The notes under the pieces are model-generated. The model made no database searches. It was not told the origin of the DNA and saw nothing but the letters and a program-made list of their open reading frames with translations. Below are positions 4,852-19,996 of a DNA stretch of 64,000 bases, one piece after another (within the stretch, counting starts at the first letter, position 1; each line of letters starts with the position of its first letter). The DNA is from Halobacterium sp. CBA1132. GTDB taxonomy: Archaea; Halobacteriota; Halobacteria; Halobacteriales; Halobacteriaceae. The stretch spans positions 62,001 through 126,000 of the forward strand of contig NZ_BCMZ01000001.1 of assembly GCF_001485535.1 (NCBI RefSeq), written 5' to 3'. Made by a program: the position numbers and the translations under genes.

Positions 4852-5784
4852 GTGTATGATTTCGGCGGCCAACCAGCGTGGGACCGGGACGGACTCAATC
4901 GGGGCGGTGCAGTCGTGAGACTCTTGTCGTGGAACGTGCAGGGGTCTGTCCCGCCTGCGGGGAGCAAAGACCGAATTAGAAAGCAGGTGTCGTTCATCGG
5001 GGAGCAGTTGGATCAGCCAGACATCGTGATGCTCAACGAGGTGACAACCGTCCAGCGCGAACTATGGCTGGACCTGCTTTGTGAAGAGCAGGGGTACACC
5101 AAGATTGTGGATACGCTCGATTGGGGGCAGGAACTCCGTGAGAGCAACGTTCCTCCCCACCACGAGTTCATCCATACGAGCGGACAAATCACCGCCGTCC
5201 ATGAGAATGCGGACGTGGGAGACCTCGAACGTCGGCGTCCGAGCATCAGGAGTGGTCCGTGGGAGAACTCGGAGATGAAAGACTGGAGTACGAACTTCCC
5301 GGAGAAGATTCTCAATTCGGAGGTCCAGATTGCCGGACAATCGGTTGACCTCTGGAACGTCCGCACCGTGCCGGGGAGCATGTACGGGGAGGAGAAAATC
5401 AAGATACTGGAGAACGTCTACGCCCGAATCACCAAGTCCGACCCGGAGAGGTGCATACTGGCGGGCGACCTCAATATCCCTAAGGCCGAGCAAGCAGATG
5501 GGGCGGTAGTCTCGTGGGGCGAGAATAAGCCAGAGAGCATCCGCGAGCGGTGGATATCGGCAGAACTGGATGTCATGACGGGTTTTTCGGATGTCGGATT
5601 GGTGGATGCGTTCAGGCACGTCCACGGTTATGGAGACCTTGATACCGAGGACACCAGTCACGAATCGAGGCGAATTGACCACATCTTCGCGTCCGAGTCA
5701 CTGAACCCTGAGCGGTGCTGGTACGACCACGACGGTTACGAGTGTAGCGACCATGCCCCGATGTTGATGGAGTTCTCGGTCTAG
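4852..5784 (+). CDS. Endonuclease/exonuclease/phosphatase (EEP) family protein
   Basis: The protein (310 residues from GTG 4852; a GTG at 4915 would begin directly at the fold with MRLLSWNVQG) shows the complete EEP active-site pattern: SWNVQ (Asn), MLNEVT (metal-binding Glu), GDLNIP (Asp-Asn), RRIDHIF (Asp) and a terminal SDHAP (Asp-His). These metal-dependent phosphodiesterases cleave DNA, RNA or phospho-substrates; the substrate here is unknown. There is no signal peptide, so it should be cytoplasmic. It stands alone in the island, divergent from the operon on its left and convergent with a restriction-endonuclease-like gene on its right, which fits a nucleic-acid-directed role. The shorter start is as plausible as the longer. 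Confidence 0.8.
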   Translation: MYDFGGQPAWDRDGLNRGGAVVRLLSWNVQGSVPPAGSKDRIRKQVSFIGEQLDQPDIVMLNEVTTVQRELWLDLLCEEQGYTKIVDTLDWGQELRESNVPPHHEFIHTSGQITAVHENADVGDLERRRPSIRSGPWENSEMKDWSTNFPEKILNSEVQIAGQSVDLWNVRTVPGSMYGEEKIKILENVYARITKSDPERCILAGDLNIPKAEQADGAVVSWGENKPESIRERWISAELDVMTGFSDVGLVDAFRHVHGYGDLDTEDTSHESRRIDHIFASESLNPERCWYDHDGYECSDHAPMLMEFSV

Positions 5785-9810: not shown

Positions 9811-10773
9811 CTAGCTAGTGGCGTCGTTCGCCGTCATACGAGCCATCACACGACGAGTCCGTTCGTGTTCCCACAGTGTTTCTAAAACGCTACGGAGCGA
9901 AAGGACGGTAACTGCGTCGTCCTTTGTATCTGGTTGTGTTCGCGTGAATAGATATGTATCGACGGTAGTTTGCTCACTAGAGGGGTGTTCTCGCACGATT
10001 TCACCAAGTTTCTCTACAGCAGTATCCGGCTGAGATTGGGTGTTTTTGACTTCACCGTAGACTGTTCGTCCCTCAGATTCGCCTAATAAGTCCACTTGGT
10101 GGGTTCCTGTTGGCCCTCCAGTATCCATGAGGGGGCAGTAGCTTGGATCGACAAGTCGGAGGTACTCCTCACAAAGAAGTTCTAATTGGTTCGTAGCATA
10201 GGAGACCGGGTCCTTTGGTGGGAGTGATTCTCCGGCCATGAGTGCTTGAAGTTGATGTTCGACCACCGGCCATGCAGTGAATGACGTATATGGCGGCTCG
10301 TATGCGGATAGGAAGTAGTCTGCACCGCGTAGCTCTTTCAGGCTATCTTCTTCGAGCTTTGTGCCTTTATACACGTATTCGAACTCGTCTACCCGTGACT
10401 CGGCTGTTTCAATATCCGAAATAATCTCTGGTGTATGGGGTGATTCATCTGGAATGCCGACTATGAGCTTATCCGCATCTTTCGGAATTACACCAAGCTT
10501 CCGCGCAGTAGTTCCTGCGTGCCTATTGGCAAGACGTGTAAGGCATAGATGTGCCTCGTCATCCGTAATTGCGTCATTCAGGTCCTCGATGTCTTGTGGT
10601 TCCTCGTCGTAGTCTTCCTTATCGAATGAAGTTTGATTCTCGTAGTGGACAAGGACATAGCCGTCCTTCCAGAGTTGCTTGAGAGTAGCCGATGGGGCTG
10701 ACATCCCCAAGTGATTAAACATCGCTTCTTTGTCTTGGTATGACATCAATTGAAACGCAGTGGGAAGGTGCAT
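9811..10773 (-). CDS. PD-(D/E)XK nuclease-like hypothetical protein
   Basis: 320 residues (or 311 from the Met at residue 10). The N-terminal 60 residues look like a winged-helix or regulatory part (SAPSATLKQLWKDGYVLVHY). The C-terminal domain contains QVDLLGESEGRTVYGEVKN, a D-x12-E-x-K motif (Asp228, Glu241, Lys243) on consecutive strands, typical of restriction-endonuclease-fold proteins. Conserved-looking cysteines (201, 213) and LVDPSYCP precede it. It may be a DNA nuclease or Holliday-junction-like enzyme; the family is not one I recognise. The stop lies within ACTAGCTAGT, a palindrome related to the island octamer. It is convergent with integrase 1. Confidence 0.6.
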   Translation of the reverse strand: MHLPTAFQLMSYQDKEAMFNHLGMSAPSATLKQLWKDGYVLVHYENQTSFDKEDYDEEPQDIEDLNDAITDDEAHLCLTRLANRHAGTTARKLGVIPKDADKLIVGIPDESPHTPEIISDIETAESRVDEFEYVYKGTKLEEDSLKELRGADYFLSAYEPPYTSFTAWPVVEHQLQALMAGESLPPKDPVSYATNQLELLCEEYLRLVDPSYCPLMDTGGPTGTHQVDLLGESEGRTVYGEVKNTQSQPDTAVEKLGEIVREHPSSEQTTVDTYLFTRTQPDTKDDAVTVLSLRSVLETLWEHERTRRVMARMTANDATS

Positions 10774-10856: not shown

Positions 10857-10875
10857 CGTCTGGATGATTTTGGTA

Positions 10876-11448
10876 ATGGGTTGGATTCGCAATCTTCTCT
10901 CCCCGAATGGAACCAGTATCGAAGACGCCCGGCCAGAGCGTGACGAACGGTTTCCACGCCACACCTACGGGCCGGGATACCCTATTGTCATTCACCGCCA
11001 AGAACTCGAAGACCTAGTCAATCTCTTGGAAATGGAAAGCAAAGCACCAGACGGGTGGGATAATTCGCCTCTTCTGAGCCGGGAAGACTTCGAGGAAATT
11101 GTTGAAGACCAAATTGGCGATGTTGCCGGTGGACTCCCATCACCTGAAGAGCGCCGTAGTGAAATCCGCGAAATCATCGAACTGTGGAGCGAACAGCTTA
11201 CCGGCTCAGAAGACACCGTCTGGACGACTATTGGTACGGACTATCAACTCAAATTCTATATCACCTACTGTGAGGGGCGAGCAAGTTCAGACGAGGACGA
11301 CTTCGAAGAGACGACCGAACTCGATACAGCACGCGAAATTCTCGACCGGATACAGGTCGCCCAAGACACCGATTCAAACCTCGCGATTGTGCATAAACGC
11401 GACCTCCCGCTTGAGGAGCCTAAGAACGGCTCGTCAGAAACGAGCTAG
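10876..11448 (+). CDS. Hypothetical acidic protein with a decayed paralogue downstream
   Basis: 190 residues from ATG 10876 (194 from ATG 10864). It opens with MGWIRNLLSPN, an amphipathic helix, and is otherwise soluble, acidic and without a recognised domain. The C-terminal tail HKRDLPLEEP...SSETS is repeated almost exactly at 13169-13229, where only the end of a paralogous gene survives, so this is a family carried by more than one element copy. The TAG stop is inside an AGCTAGCT octamer in both copies. Upstream lies the divergent PD-(D/E)XK-like gene; downstream the convergent HNH gene. Function unknown. Confidence 0.6.
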   Translation: MGWIRNLLSPNGTSIEDARPERDERFPRHTYGPGYPIVIHRQELEDLVNLLEMESKAPDGWDNSPLLSREDFEEIVEDQIGDVAGGLPSPEERRSEIREIIELWSEQLTGSEDTVWTTIGTDYQLKFYITYCEGRASSDEDDFEETTELDTAREILDRIQVAQDTDSNLAIVHKRDLPLEEPKNGSSETS

Positions 11449-11483: not shown

Positions 11484-12770
11484 TTAGGAGGGCTGTTGCG
11501 TGGCTATTTTCGCCATCTCTTTTTCGATCGTTTTCTGGAGATAATAGTCACCAATCAATTTTGACGCAATTAACAACCCAATAGCGAGAAGGACGAACAA
11601 CACGAGACTCCCGGCCGCGTACGATATTCCCATTATTCCAAGACCGAGAAGAACGGCTCCGCCCACAATTTTATTCCCGGCTTTATTATACTCCTTCGAC
11701 AGTCTCCGATACTCGGTAACGTCTTCTGGCAACCGGTACCCTTCCTTACAGGCTTCCTCCACCACCTTTGTAACTAACTTCAATCCCTGCATATCATATT
11801 GACTATGTATCACTTCCATATTCGTTTCCGTTAAACCCCACTCTGTTTGACAATCTTCGCAACGTGCGAGAGTCAGTTGGTATTGCCCAGCGACGTTTTC
11901 TAGATTCTTCTGGTGAAGCTCCTCACCGCAGACAGGACAGTTATTAGGTTGGTTTACAACGGCTTGACTGCATTTTCCACTAAGGGTCGCAGTTTTCTCC
12001 TTGATAGTACGCAGGAGAAACTGAATGACTTCCTCAGACGCATTAATGTACTGCTCGGCAACTCTCTCCAATTCATCACTTGCCATATTAAGATCGACAA
12101 TATCTGATTGAGCGATCTTCCGTTGCTCCTTAACGCGGACCGAAATGTCGCGGTGATCCGCGACAGCCGTTTGAACGTCGTGAGATATGCTGGAGAGGTT
12201 TTGATACGCCTCTTGAGGTGCTTGTCCTTGATGTTCATTCGGAAGTGGGATGTCCCGAACTTCCGAAGTCGCCTGTTCAAACTCTTCTAAGTTGTTCGTG
12301 ACTTCCTCCACTACTTCCCGAAATTTGATGTTTAACCGGTCAGACTCATCTTCTTCCGAGAGCATGGCAAACATTTTGGCGTATTCAGCTAGTTCCTCCA
12401 AATCATCGGCAAAGCTGTCGATTATATTGACCGTCTTTATAAGTTGGTTGCCCAGCTGGACTTCATCGGAAACAGCGTACGGGTAGCGTTCAATAGAGAG
12501 TGGAAATTGCCATTCAGTGCCCTTCTGAGTTTCTGTCTCGGAGGGGGCCATGCTATTGCCATGAATAGCATTATGACACTCTCTACAGAGTGTTTTCAGG
12601 TTGCTCTTCTGATGGGTTCCACCTTTACTTTTCGGGACGATATGATGAGCATGCAATTCCGCATCGCCACCCGATCCCCCCTTCGAACCGCAGTTCTGGC
12701 ATTTATAATTATCCCGTTGATACACCTCTTTTCTTCGCGTATCCCAATCAGAAGGATATCCGTTCGTCAT
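11484..12770 (-). CDS. HNH endonuclease fused to coiled coil, zinc ribbon and two transmembrane helices
   Basis: 428 residues with an unusual order. An N-terminal HNH nuclease (about 10-72) has zinc-type pairs C24/C27 and C62/C65, the His pair at 42-43 (AHHIVPKS), Asn57 and His66/His70. A long helical or coiled region (100-265) follows, then a second zinc ribbon (CPVCGEE...CEDCQTEW, about 273-305). Near the C terminus is a hydrophobic pair (VGGAVLLGLGIMGISYA and LVLFVLLAIGLLIAS) ending in a charged tail. This predicts a membrane-anchored nuclease facing the cytoplasm. Such nuclease-plus-membrane designs occur among antiviral effectors, but that role is inference here. Low GC marks it as island cargo. 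Confidence 0.75.
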   Translation of the reverse strand: MTNGYPSDWDTRRKEVYQRDNYKCQNCGSKGGSGGDAELHAHHIVPKSKGGTHQKSNLKTLCRECHNAIHGNSMAPSETETQKGTEWQFPLSIERYPYAVSDEVQLGNQLIKTVNIIDSFADDLEELAEYAKMFAMLSEEDESDRLNIKFREVVEEVTNNLEEFEQATSEVRDIPLPNEHQGQAPQEAYQNLSSISHDVQTAVADHRDISVRVKEQRKIAQSDIVDLNMASDELERVAEQYINASEEVIQFLLRTIKEKTATLSGKCSQAVVNQPNNCPVCGEELHQKNLENVAGQYQLTLARCEDCQTEWGLTETNMEVIHSQYDMQGLKLVTKVVEEACKEGYRLPEDVTEYRRLSKEYNKAGNKIVGGAVLLGLGIMGISYAAGSLVLFVLLAIGLLIASKLIGDYYLQKTIEKEMAKIATQQPS

Positions 12771-13064: not shown

Positions 13065-13166
13065 CTATATCTCGTCTAAGAACTCTTGACGGGCTTTGAT
13101 GCTGCATCACGAGGAAGGGCTTCGCAACGCTTCTCGTCTCTCCCGTGCGGACAGCTAGCTTGATGT
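13065..13166 (-). pseudogene. Remnant of a third tyrosine recombinase
   Basis: Read on the minus strand this gives HQASCPHGRDEKRCEALPRD followed by AASK, matching YQASCPHGRDKENCEALPRD then AASK of integrase 2. An internal deletion follows, then QEFLDEI and a stop matching the C-terminal REFLDEI of the same protein. The catalytic HxxR and Tyr are gone. It records a lost second copy of an element with an integrase-2-like recombinase. Confidence 0.8.
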
Positions 13167-13168
13167 GG

Positions 13169-13229
13169 ATAAACGCGATCTTCCACTTGAGGAGCCTGAG
13201 AAAGACTCGTTAGAAACGAGCTAGCTGTC
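13169..13229 (+). pseudogene. 3' remnant of a paralogue of the 10876-11448 gene
   Basis: The sequence encodes DKRDLPLEEPEKDSLETS and a TAG stop, against HKRDLPLEEPKNGSSETS in the intact gene. About 60 bases align with a few mostly silent or conservative changes, and both copies end in AGCTAGCTGTC. Nothing of the gene's 5' part remains; it abuts the integrase remnant, so one deletion joined the two. Confidence 0.8.
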
Positions 13230-13348
13230 GTAATATCGCAGATTTAGACTAGCTGCTTCTTCCGTAGCCGGTACGCGGCTATCCACACACTATTTTCGAA
13301 CTACTGGAGTATTTGCTGGCAGACGTCGGTGTCGTGTTGCGCCTTGAT

Positions 13349-13867
13349 TTACTCGATGACATCCGACTCACGTGTGCGAAGAAGCCGTTCAATTTCATCC
13401 AATATATCGCGAATGAGTTTTGCTGACGGGGAGGACACCTCGATAGTTCCATACTGCTCGTGATCATAGGTGTACGGTTTATAGAACGTCCGTCGGGTTA
13501 GCGCACTTTTGACCGTTTCTGCTGCACTGCACGACAAGTGTTCCGTCGCGCGAGCCGCCGCCTGCTGGTATTGACGGTCACACCGTGCCTCGTTGGAGAG
13601 AATATACTCAGCTACGAATACCGGCCATGTTTCTTTCAGGGCTTCTGTGGCTTTCCATGAGTATGGTGTGTTAGGAAGGGTCGCATCATCTTCTACCGAG
13701 ATACCTGCTGCTTCGAACTGTTCTTCCAGTTCGTCCCTGATGAGGGAGTCCACGTAGCCGCTATCGAATACCTCATCGAGGACTTCATAGATCAGACTGT
13801 ATTCGGATGGGTCTTGGTTGACGGTGTTATTGCGTAGGTCGGGCGAGTCATAATCGTCTAATGCCAT
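13349..13867 (-). CDS. Hypothetical island protein
   Basis: 172 residues, acidic, with no motif I recognise; there is no signal peptide or membrane helix. It has helical composition in the middle (WKATEALKETWPVFVAEYIL) and a C-terminal helix IRDILDEIERLLRT. A single gene, it lies in the same orientation as the dGTPase operon that starts about 1.7 kb upstream but is separated from it by a 220-bp gap rich in CTAG tetramers (13937-13985). Function unknown. Confidence 0.6.
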   Translation of the reverse strand: MALDDYDSPDLRNNTVNQDPSEYSLIYEVLDEVFDSGYVDSLIRDELEEQFEAAGISVEDDATLPNTPYSWKATEALKETWPVFVAEYILSNEARCDRQYQQAAARATEHLSCSAAETVKSALTRRTFYKPYTYDHEQYGTIEVSSPSAKLIRDILDEIERLLRTRESDVIE

Positions 13868-14087: not shown

Positions 14088-15554
14088 TCACCCAACGATG
14101 TCGTTCTGGAGGGCATCTGGGGTATCTCCGCATAGACGCCGGTGTAGTGCTACTGCTTGCCGTTCCGTTAGTGCCGAGATGATATCTGCAACAATTCTAG
14201 ACCGAGGTGAATCATCATGGGTCTTCACCCAATCGTGGAAGGGAGAAGGAATGATGCTTTTTGAGAGGTCTTTTGGGTTTGCCTCGGAATACAGAGCTTC
14301 AAAGAGTTCCCGTAAAATCCGACGCTGACCATGTTGTTGCTGCATCAGCGTTGGATTACTGATGACATAGAACTCTGTCATCGCTTTCAGCATCCGGATC
14401 TCATCTATATACTCTTCCTTTTTGAGATTCCATCGTCCGTCTTCGTTTTCGACGAATACTGCTTCGGGCGATGTTTCTCGTCCTGCTTCCACGTAACGTT
14501 CAACGAGACCGCTTGTGAACTCGCTGAGTGCCTGTCTCTCCGCACTCGTATTTTCGAACGGCGTAACCAACGCTCGATTTGACCCGGACAACTCCTTGGC
14601 GAGATTTTCGAGATGACCCGCCACGTCGAAGGAATTCGGGTCCACCTCTGTATTCTCGTCTAAGTAGTCTTCGAATTTATCAAGGTGGTCTCTGGAACTG
14701 ACGCTATACTGTTCGTACGGGCCTGTAGACGAGTCATTACTCCCCTCGTCAATCGCCTCTCGAAACAGTTCATGAAGCGGGATTAATCCCGCCCGGTAGA
14801 AGTCCATCAGATCATGAATAGCATACGTCAAGTCATCTGCGTAGTCCATAATCTGCGCCTCCAAGGTCTGACGATGGTCGTCGTAAGCCCCTGTCTCTCG
14901 GTAGTCCCCTAGTCCTCGCCGTGCCCAACTGAAGGCTGCCCGGTCACTAGGGTAGTAACCCCACTTGCTATCATTTTTATCCCGGCCCCATGGGTACTTT
15001 AGCATCCCATTAAGTGTGGCACGAGTAAGATTCAGGCCTGTTTCTGGATCTCTATGATCTGCGAGTCGCGTGACGATTCGGAACGATTGTGCGTTCCCCT
15101 CAAACCCGATTTCCTTTTCTGATCCGTTATTTTTCGAATATTCTCTAACGAGGCTGTCTAGCTCATCTTCGCCTGCATGGCCGAATGGTGGATGACCGAT
15201 ATCGTGTGCATGAGCAGCAGCCTCTACCACGTAGGGATCAAGGCTAGTCTTTAGACCTGAGTCCCCCTTAGGGAACTCCCGACCTTCTGTGTACTCCGCT
15301 TGGATATCGTGGCGTTGGTGGATAATACGAGTAAGAGAACTCGCGACTTGTGCAACCTTGAGAGAGTGAGTAAGGCGGTCATGATAAAGGTATGACTCAT
15401 CTGCCCGTGCTACCTGCGTCACTCCCTTTAGCCGCCGAAATTCCCGCGCGTATCGTACACGGTCTCGGTCACGTCGAGACGGAGACCGAAATATTCCTTC
15501 TGAACTGTCTGTTTGACGCTCATACCTCTCTTTGGCCTCGAGATCTACCGTCAT
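14088..15554 (-). CDS. dGTPase-like HD-domain deoxynucleoside triphosphate triphosphohydrolase
   Basis: 488 residues with the HD signature of dGTPases: His63 (HDRLTHSLKV), HAHDIGHPPFGHAGE (His117-Asp118, with His121 and His126) and a later metal Asp in IMDYADDLTYAIHD. The N-terminal RLKGVTQV and the length also match the dGTPase family. The enzyme releases tripolyphosphate from dNTPs, lowering or balancing the nucleotide pool. Eighteen bases upstream ends a winged-helix gene on the same strand, so the two form an operon. In bacteria dGTPases can act as anti-phage enzymes by draining dNTPs; its place in an integrative island beside nucleases makes the same role plausible here, but it is not shown. 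Confidence 0.85.
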   Translation of the reverse strand: MTVDLEAKERYERQTDSSEGIFRSPSRRDRDRVRYAREFRRLKGVTQVARADESYLYHDRLTHSLKVAQVASSLTRIIHQRHDIQAEYTEGREFPKGDSGLKTSLDPYVVEAAAHAHDIGHPPFGHAGEDELDSLVREYSKNNGSEKEIGFEGNAQSFRIVTRLADHRDPETGLNLTRATLNGMLKYPWGRDKNDSKWGYYPSDRAAFSWARRGLGDYRETGAYDDHRQTLEAQIMDYADDLTYAIHDLMDFYRAGLIPLHELFREAIDEGSNDSSTGPYEQYSVSSRDHLDKFEDYLDENTEVDPNSFDVAGHLENLAKELSGSNRALVTPFENTSAERQALSEFTSGLVERYVEAGRETSPEAVFVENEDGRWNLKKEEYIDEIRMLKAMTEFYVISNPTLMQQQHGQRRILRELFEALYSEANPKDLSKSIIPSPFHDWVKTHDDSPRSRIVADIISALTERQAVALHRRLCGDTPDALQNDIVG

Positions 15555-15572
15555 TAAGAATCAGATTGGGAT

Positions 15573-15821
15573 TTATGCAGGCTTTCGCTGAGTCTGCTCG
15601 CCGACGTACTCGTACTCAAAGCTGGGAAGAGAGGCCACCAGCCGTTTCCGCGAAAGGTTATTCATCGCCTCCCGGACAGTATCGTGACTGCAATCTAACT
15701 CCTCCGCAACTTCGGAGATCTTCATCGGCCCCTTTTCTTCTAGCACCCTTAGGACATCCTCCTCGAGCTTTTCTAATTCAACTTCGAGGGATGCCACGTC
15801 TGATCGTGGGTGTTCCATCAC
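15573..15821 (-). CDS. Winged-helix regulator in operon with dGTPase
   Basis: 82 residues. After a short coiled start (LEVELEKLEEDVLRVLEEKG) comes a clean helix-turn-helix (KISEVAEELDCSHDTVREAM) and a wing (RKRLVASLPSFEYEYVG). It is the first gene of the operon and the dGTPase starts 18 nt after it, so it probably controls that enzyme's expression. No sensory domain is visible; a signal would have to act on the small wHTH itself. ATG 15821 or 15818 are equally possible starts. Confidence 0.75.
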   Translation of the reverse strand: MMEHPRSDVASLEVELEKLEEDVLRVLEEKGPMKISEVAEELDCSHDTVREAMNNLSRKRLVASLPSFEYEYVGEQTQRKPA

Positions 15822-15918
15822 ATCGTCTCATTCGCCCCCAAACACTTAATTCTGTATGGCCTACGAAACGTTCTCCAGAATATTCGGTTGTTAGGCTATC
15901 CTTTACGCGATTTTGTAG

Positions 15919-16929
15919 CTATATTTCATCTAAAAACTCTCGCCGTTGCTCCATTTTGTCGCGCTTGCTCCGTTGATCGTAGTGCTGTTCCAAGACATCA
16001 AGCGAAACGTTCGCCCGATCCGACACAGCCCGTTCCGGGATATCTTGACGTAGGTGGTGGGTGATTGCTCCTCGACGTATCGCGTGCGGCGATACGCTTG
16101 ACGGACACTTTGAGGCTGCATCACGAGGTAGGGCCTCGCAGTTTTCCTTGTCTCGCCCGTGCGGGCAGCTAGCTTGATATACACACGGGCGCGTGTAACG
16201 GTACACATAGGCTTGTACCGTACTCTCGTGTATTCGCCCGTAATTCGTCGCTAGCAGTGGTTTCCGTCCATTTTCATCGGTTATATCCGGCCGACGGTCT
16301 TCGATCCAATCGTCCAGTAGTTCGCAGGTTTGGTCGTCAAGAGCGATCATTCGCTCGCCTTCCTTCTTGTTCTTCAGGGGTGTTCCCGAGTCGGGCCTGT
16401 GTTTCGTGTCGAGGTACTGCTCTTCTGGGTTGTAGTCGCGGAGATCGAGTGATTTGACTGCTCCTCGCCGCATCATCGTATGCCATAGCAGCGTGAGCGT
16501 GACGTGTTCGATAGAGGCGTACTGGTACTTCTGGAGGTACGCCAGCACTTGGTCAGCTTCCTCAGCTTCGAGGGTAACGTCGCGCGTGTTCTCTTCTGGT
16601 GTGATATCCGGTGATTGGACTTTTGTGGAGAGGTCCTCTGGGACGGCTTCGATTGCCTCACACCAACGGAGGAACACACGGACAGTGTCCATCTGGGTTT
16701 TCTCCGTGGGCTTCGAGAGGTCCCCTACGTTTCGTCTCCAGATGCGGTATTCGTGGACTTTCCGTCCGGTGAGGTCGTTGAGGTTGTTAATCCCGTTTTC
16801 GTTGCACCACTCTACGAAGTAGCTGAGGCGGGACTTGTGCGAGTAGATGGTCGAACGGGCTAATTCTGCTTCCTTGTCTTGGAGGTACAGTTCGAGCGCG
16901 TGTTCTGGGGTGATTGGTTCGAGTGACAT
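15919..16929 (-). CDS. Tyrosine recombinase/integrase, copy 2
   Basis: 336 residues. A core-binding domain (about 8-105) is followed by a catalytic domain with Arg154 (TMMRRG), Lys186, HAIRR (His282/Arg285) and Tyr317 (HYDQRS). It carries the same four-Cys insert as integrase 1 with identical spacing (C249-x5-C255-x8-C264-x10-C275). It sits at the right end of the island and is transcribed inwards, the usual place for the integrase of an integrated element whose att site lies outside it; the 787-bp gap to its right should then hold the attachment site. The rightmost AGCTAGCT octamer (16167) is inside the gene. Confidence 0.88.
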   Translation of the reverse strand: MSLEPITPEHALELYLQDKEAELARSTIYSHKSRLSYFVEWCNENGINNLNDLTGRKVHEYRIWRRNVGDLSKPTEKTQMDTVRVFLRWCEAIEAVPEDLSTKVQSPDITPEENTRDVTLEAEEADQVLAYLQKYQYASIEHVTLTLLWHTMMRRGAVKSLDLRDYNPEEQYLDTKHRPDSGTPLKNKKEGERMIALDDQTCELLDDWIEDRRPDITDENGRKPLLATNYGRIHESTVQAYVYRYTRPCVYQASCPHGRDKENCEALPRDAASKCPSSVSPHAIRRGAITHHLRQDIPERAVSDRANVSLDVLEQHYDQRSKRDKMEQRREFLDEI

Positions 16930-16985: not shown

Positions 16986-17162
16986 GTGCGCCGCGCACGG
17001 GTTCGTGGTGAATACCCTTCGCGCCCGTGTACCTTTTTACTTCGTCGGGTTCCCTCGCTCGCTTCGCTCGCTGCGGGAACCTCTCCTCGTAAAAATCTAC
17101 GCTAAAAACGTTCTCGCACTCGCTTCGCTCGTGCGAGTGAATCGCGCGGCTGCGCCGCGCGA
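16986..17162. repeat. Cluster of four short GC-rich hairpins
   Basis: Stems: GTGCGC/GCGCAC (16986-16998), GGTTCCC/GGGAACC (17048-17054, 17075-17081), CTCGCAC/GTGCGAG (17113-17119, 17131-17137) and TCGCGCGGC/GCCGCGCGA (17142-17150, 17154-17162). Between them run CTCGCTTCGCTC-type sequences. Similar modular hairpins recur at 37956-38212 and 57786-57802, so this is a dispersed intergenic repeat type. Confidence 0.6.
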
Positions 17163-17627
17163 ATGCCACCTCCAAAGTTAAGGCCACGAGCGGAGCAAGT
17201 ACGTCTGCGTATCTGAATTTCGTCACAGCGTATTACTGGTCCCCTTCGCGCCCGTCATTCCCGAACGTACTTGGAATCCACGTGACGGCTCCGAGGTCAC
17301 GCGGTTTCCTTTTAACCGGCGTGGATTGTGTGTCGTGATTCCGCAGCTTCGGGTGTTACGATCCGATTTCGTCGCGCGGTATCGACTGCTATTGCAATCC
17401 GGATACTTAGTTGCCGGCCGGCGGGATTGCCGGCGCACGCGTGTGGCGAAGCGTGCTGGTAGGCGCGAGGAGTCGTGGCGCGTGGTTGATTTCGAATTCA
17501 GCGGCGATTAGTCTGCCTTTTAGTAGTACCACTCGATTTCTAGTGCGTAAGCCCGGCACACGTACAACCGGCGAACTTACGTTGTGCGTTCCCCTGACCG
17601 CAGGACTTTTGCACTACGCGCAGCAAT

Positions 17628-19733: not shown

Positions 19734-19996
19734 CCAGCCGTCGGTTCGCCGCTTCTCTTCGTCCAGTAGCAAGGACGCAGTGACCGATACGGGGCTTTTT
19801 CGCGTGAAACGACTCGCCGGACAGCTAGGACTTCTCAGGTATAATTCTCAGCTTCCACGTTTTGGCCGTCTCACGCCCGAAAGGCGATTCGTTCGTGTGT
19901 CGAACAAACGCCCTTCGCGCCCGCTTCTCAGCGATTCGATAGCGACCGTCGGAACTGGCAAACGATTTACTTGTCCGTGCGTCGTATCGGGCGAGT

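Follow-up and report, generated by a model that had tools for sequence, protein, structure and literature searches.

Immunity by depletion of deoxynucleotides (dNTPs) is known from animals (SAMHD1) and bacteria. Bacterial anti-phage dGTPases (of the type of Tal et al. 2022) have, to our knowledge, been described as stand-alone effectors. dGTPases of the TIGR01353 family restrict phages in bacteria, and in Clover, a two-gene system of the dGTPase CloA and the nucleotidyltransferase CloB, CloA is toxic without its restraining partner (PMC12265719). Toxin-antitoxin defence by dNTP removal is found in AvcID, a pair of the deaminase AvcD and the RNA antitoxin AvcI (PMC10511110). Other immune operons are kept off until DNA damage occurs by controllers encoded next to them, namely CapW/BrxR (WYL), CapH with CapP and CapK with CapS (PMC13373217).

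The window, i.e. the whole stretch of 64,000 nucleotides analysed here (C1:62001-126000 of the 3.0 Mb host genome G000, Halobacterium sp. CBA1132), contains a cassette of a small winged-helix (wHTH) gene and a dGTPase gene. The enzyme belongs to the same TIGR01353 family and has the same catalytic signature as the bacterial anti-phage dGTPases (NF041026, PADLOC dGTPase; Shewanella 9p8w), which are also found in mobile or defence DNA; it differs from them in being archaeal, in scoring under the NF041026 cut-off and in being always accompanied by a small upstream wHTH. Clover likewise consists of a dGTPase and a restraining partner (restraint is proposed here), and CloA is among the nearest folds, but the haloarchaeal partner is a wHTH of 63-90 aa without a nucleotidyltransferase domain, and the control by p3diT and dTTP cannot be carried over to the haloarchaeal pair. 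No CloB-type nucleotidyltransferase was found beside the window cassette, the neighbours being an integrase and a 172-aa protein. Like the Cap controllers and BrxR, the wHTH is an HTH-type protein encoded beside the (here presumed) promoter of its operon; unlike them, the window wHTH lacks WYL and STAS domains and has no kinase or peptidase partner (the adjacent genes encode the dGTPase and the integrase), and the haloarchaeal wHTH is tied to one effector type, whereas Cap controllers are tied to many. With AvcID the pair shares the two-gene layout, a nucleotide-depleting effector (predicted here) and a small control element, with a predicted protein partner and a dGTPase instead of an RNA antitoxin and a deaminase. 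The gene layout of type II toxin-antitoxin systems, with a short gene just ahead of that of the effector, is present as well.

Because the cassette recurs intact across distant haloarchaea, often in or beside antiviral clusters, it has the appearance of an archaeal version, so far undescribed, of the virus-starvation defence known from bacteria. An earlier note on this DNA had called such a version little described, and in text searches of the open-access literature, among it a survey of archaeal immunity from 2026 (PMC12988326), neither haloarchaeal dGTPases nor the wHTH-dGTPase pair were found described. If true, a defined two-gene system in archaea would bring dNTP-depleting immunity into the third domain, and the cassette would allow a test of how cells keep a dGTPase in check when no nucleotide signal is involved.

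The wHTH-dGTPase cassette

The gene of the dGTP triphosphohydrolase (HD domain, 488 aa) lies at 14088-15554 (- strand). The protein was matched by TIGR01353 over residues 23-476 (246 bits, 8.8e-73, cut-off 152.35), as expected of a complete enzyme, by Pfam HD and HD_assoc, both above cut-off, and by the PADLOC 'dGTPase' model (300 bits), which bears out the full HD-type dGTPase that the earlier note had claimed. With NF041026 (NCBI 'anti-phage dGTPase') 218.6 bits were obtained, below the cut-off of 400. H63, H117-D118 (HD motif), the catalytic pair H126/E129 and D240-D241 were invariant in 15 haloarchaeal homologues, and the segments HDIGHPPFGH and IMDYADD lined up with those of solved dGTPases in the alignment. 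As read from the sequence the catalytic signature is intact, and dGTPase activity, which splits dGTP into deoxyguanosine and triphosphate, is predicted for the enzyme. An AlphaFold2 model (mean pLDDT 69, moderate) had its nearest folds in Vibrio VC1979, the anti-phage Shewanella dGTPase 9p8w and Clover CloA (9p8s-9p8v). In the host genome this is the sole full dGTPase; three further HD proteins scored far under the TIGR01353 cut-off.

The wHTH protein (81 aa) is encoded upstream at 15573-15818 (- strand; ATG at 15818, stop at 15573), with an alternative GTG start one codon further upstream at 15821. A gap of 18 bp separates its gene from the dGTPase gene that follows on the same strand, so that a two-gene operon, as proposed earlier, is the natural reading and is predicted here. 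This gap appears too short to hold a promoter; the operon promoter is presumed to lie in the 100 bp between the wHTH gene and the integrase gene (15819-15918, - strand), with an AT-rich TATA-like stretch ~30 bp upstream of the wHTH ATG. TATA-like boxes ~25-40 bp ahead of the wHTH start were read by eye in many loci. The term winged helix proved correct as a description of the fold: many wHTH families matched weakly, GntR and TrmB matched above cut-off, and the predicted structure (pLDDT 81.6) consists of a helix, an HTH, a wing and a loose tail. Structurally it resembles generic wHTHs, with the IclR, DtxR and Z-domain types closest, and a likeness to Zalpha/Z-DNA proteins was set aside as too generic for a claim. 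No sensor domain was found in the 81 aa, which matched profiles of wHTH families only. The 172-aa gene adjoining the cassette (13349-13867), without Pfam match, was considered as a third operon member and rejected, a homologue being found beside no other cassette. Taken together, the comparisons support the reading of the locus as a candidate antiviral nucleotide-depletion module.

Pairing and distribution in haloarchaea

A survey of haloarchaea for the pair, as suggested in the earlier note, found a small homologous wHTH directly upstream of all 17 testable full dGTPases. In the first round 15 of 15 loci had a wHTH-like ORF of ~63-90 aa upstream, on the same strand and after a short gap (18 bp at the window, roughly 5-24 bp at the others); the rule was then checked as a prediction on two later-found dGTPases of genome G761, both of which were preceded by a wHTH. 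For loci L040, L048 and L086 the mechanically set dGTPase start was shifted downstream to clear an overlap. Locus L042, where the dGTPase begins at a contig end, was counted as untestable and left out of the tally, because joining it to a contig-end wHTH of the same genome (L116, both G219) failed for lack of overlap between the ends.

The wHTH was upstream of none of 16 core haloarchaeal HD-protein genes (corrected gene starts), some of which are preceded by another small ORF, in four cases a similar small membrane protein. No such partner was found before bacterial dGTPases at six plasmid loci (one by annotation only); the annotated small genes upstream of the Deinococcus and Rhizobium dGTPases were rejected as partners, not being wHTH-like. 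Among the methanogen dGTPases of the phylum that were inspected, none had a comparable upstream gene, and a 115-aa wHTH located 67 bp upstream of one of them (L060) was discarded because of its different size and spacing.

Leave-one-out profiles built from 16 of the 17 wHTHs recovered each seventeenth (E 5e-21 to 6e-6, Z=3000). Between pairs of loci, wHTH distances were correlated with dGTPase distances (Mantel r 0.78, reached in 0 of 10000 permutations). When 292 genomes were searched with the wHTH profile alone, the top ranks were taken by 11 dGTPase-adjacent copies and the next two by copies beside dGTPase remnants, namely a truncated dGTPase of 134 aa (G002, L113) and the first 27 residues of a dGTPase (G048, L114); an orphan wHTH was found in G043 (L115), where no dGTPase was detected. 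Since dGTPase loci carry the wHTH and a wHTH search returns dGTPase loci, each partner predicts the other, and the inherited unit is, to judge from these comparisons, the pair and not the dGTPase alone.

A dGTPase above the TIGR01353 cut-off was present in 16 of 391 haloarchaeal genomes and missing from about 96%; within the genus the pair occurred in 1 of 13 genomes and in none of the 12 sister species. Cassettes were found on three plasmids, and their G+C averaged 0.48 versus 0.58 and 0.60 in the 5-kb flanks. In a maximum-likelihood tree of 48 sequences, with a small bacterial sample and several long outgroup branches, the 18 haloarchaeal dGTPases formed one clade (100/100) that was nested among bacterial-type enzymes and apart from nearly all methanogen enzymes; the nearest relative in this small bacterial sample was an actinobacterium. 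Host families are mixed within the clade: the window dGTPase groups with that of Halorubrum and that of Natribaculum with that of G318, while G761 has two distant copies in one genome. The haloarchaeal cassette is thus judged to be moving horizontally. No relatives of the window dGTPase were found in viral contigs, and among annotated phages only distant bacterial-phage dGTPases are related to it. The Salinirubellus salinus plasmid has two copies of the cassette together with several of its neighbours (L046, L049), and the second dGTPase is split into two reading frames.

Proposed action of the dGTPase and its restraint

With moderate confidence the cassette is interpreted as a self-contained, horizontally moving two-gene antiviral module, in which the dGTPase effector drains dGTP and the wHTH restrains it via its own promoter. 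Once active in an infected cell, the dGTPase would drain dGTP, and the loss of dGTP would stall viral DNA replication; restriction of viruses by the cassette is proposed by analogy with the bacterial enzymes. In uninfected cells the wHTH, encoded by the first gene of the operon, would hold the costly dGTPase off, most likely as a repressor of its own operon whose hold is released by infection or DNA damage. As CloA is toxic when unrestrained (PMC12265719), it is plausible that a mobile dGTPase must come with an off-switch; the one candidate that is always there is the wHTH, presumably acting at the level of transcription. Autorepression relieved on infection is the simplest model; it is weakened, not overturned, by the lack of a palindrome, since no significant palindromic operator was detected upstream of the wHTH genes at the 15 loci tested (window included).

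For the same reason a second model, in which the wHTH binds the enzyme directly, is retained as a strong rival, possible if on the whole doubtful: the wHTH would act on the dGTPase and not, or not only, on the promoter, either as a toxin-antitoxin-style inhibitor or as a DNA-sensing subunit that activates the enzyme when viral DNA appears. The missing conserved palindrome is joined here by the strict one-to-one pairing with one effector type, even in solitary cassettes, by the position of the small partner upstream as in many toxin-antitoxin operons, and by the E. coli dGTPase structure 4x9e, which contains DNA effector molecules. In the haloarchaeal wHTH homologues the wing motif T-x-D-(W/F)-x-Y is also more conserved than the presumed recognition helix, but conservation of the wing may be structural, and the fold is that of an ordinary wHTH of the types named above. 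More speculative, and rather unlikely, is the version in which the minimal wHTH is itself the detector of viral or damaged nucleic acid and, bound to the dGTPase, turns the enzyme on or off, which would make the cassette a protein-based counterpart of Clover and a new archaeal immune class.

The island and the surroundings of the cassettes

The window cassette lies in an island of 47.3 kb (G000:C1 34649-81910) that includes the low-G+C left part of the window and ends at window position ~19910. In the sister genome G066 the island is absent at the same place and both flanks are joined directly. The island was inserted at a tRNA-Arg(CCG) gene, whose 3' end is the 13-bp att core CCCTTCGCGCCCG at which the flanks meet in G066. 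Four copies of the core were found in the host genome: one at the left boundary outside the window (G000:C1 34636-34648, tRNA-Arg 3' end), two internal (+ strand, 17015-17027 and 17242-17254) and one forming the right boundary (+ strand, 19911-19923). The integrative island of the earlier note is confirmed by these data, and the repeated core copies indicate that elements were probably inserted in tandem. As a side observation, four copies fit nested or tandem integration events within one island, and the same tRNA-Arg carries other inserts in at least three sister species (G353, G319, G093) and none in G066, which marks it as an integration hot spot.

A tyrosine integrase of 336 aa (15919-16929, - strand) is encoded next to the cassette on its upstream side, at a distance of 86 bp from the internal core copy at 17015. 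Its family adjoins the cassette in Halorubrum halodurans (L005) and is found within 10 kb of it in L039 and L040; in all, integrases adjoin or lie near the cassette in five loci (window, L005, L039, L040, L044). At L036 (5897-19895) the cassette lies on the opposite strand within a BREX operon, between PglX and BrxC-BrxB-BrxC; placed antisense amid the genes of a haloarchaeal BREX operon, it would be a nested defence system. At L037 it is surrounded by genes of DUF1156 methylases and of a DUF499 ATPase (BREX-related), DUF499 ATPases being part of BREX-related systems (PMC12839542). Insertion in two different BREX-type operons is hard to put down to chance. Further defence genes were a type IIG RM enzyme within 4 kb (L042), a methyltransferase at 1.6 kb (L043), a pAgo at ~6 kb (L038, Salinigranum rubrum plasmid) and a CBASS cyclase at ~2.3 kb (L046, Salinirubellus salinus plasmid); this link to defence genes is qualitative. 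No defence gene was present among the few neighbours scanned at L035, L041, L045 and L047. The neighbours identified at L035, L041 and L045 are housekeeping or metabolic genes (lysyl-tRNA synthetase, PheRS beta, FAD oxidoreductase), a radical-SAM gene lies near L047, and helicase and lactate-racemase-type genes lie near L048. At least three cassettes are solitary between housekeeping-type genes with no mobile element evident nearby, so that the two genes alone can form a unit.

These solitary copies bear on the unlikely reading that the dGTPase is a weapon of the resident integrative element, keeping out rival elements instead of protecting the host from viruses. Such a role would suit the integrase directly adjoining the cassette at the window and L005 and the repeated integration at tRNA-Arg seen in the internal core copies; it is at odds with cassettes that have no element nearby, and in mechanism it overlaps with the defence reading. 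That the enzyme is an ordinary one of dNTP-pool or mutation control, on mobile DNA by accident, is very improbable given its absence from most haloarchaeal genomes, the low G+C, the decayed copies and the insertions within BREX and BREX-related operons, even though some haloarchaeal copies are flanked by housekeeping genes, and some bacterial dGTPases have housekeeping roles, as with a Caulobacter Dgt that promotes cell-cycle progression (PMC12186491). Nor does the case that the earlier note had set against itself, a core gene set with no link to mobile DNA, agree with the 16 of 391 genomes, the three plasmids, the five integrase-linked loci and the BREX-type operons.

The same note had described the island as full of nuclease-like genes. 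This stands for an HNH protein (11484-12770) and an Exo_endo_phos protein (4852-5784), and fails for most other island genes, in which a nuclease match is lacking. The HNH protein (428 aa) has an N-terminal HNH nuclease, a coiled coil, zinc-ribbon-like cysteines and apparent C-terminal membrane helices, and is possibly an uncharacterised defence nuclease. In a 320-aa protein without Pfam match (9811-10773), residues near VDLLGESEGRTVYGEVKNT resemble, by eye only, a PD-(D/E)xK nuclease core. On the far side of the cassette lies a remnant of an integrase gene (13070-13164, - strand), of which 13094-13164 is 85% identical to 16108-16178; within window 13070-13230 it is fused with an 88% copy of the end of gene 10864-11448, which suggests recombination-driven shuffling of modules.
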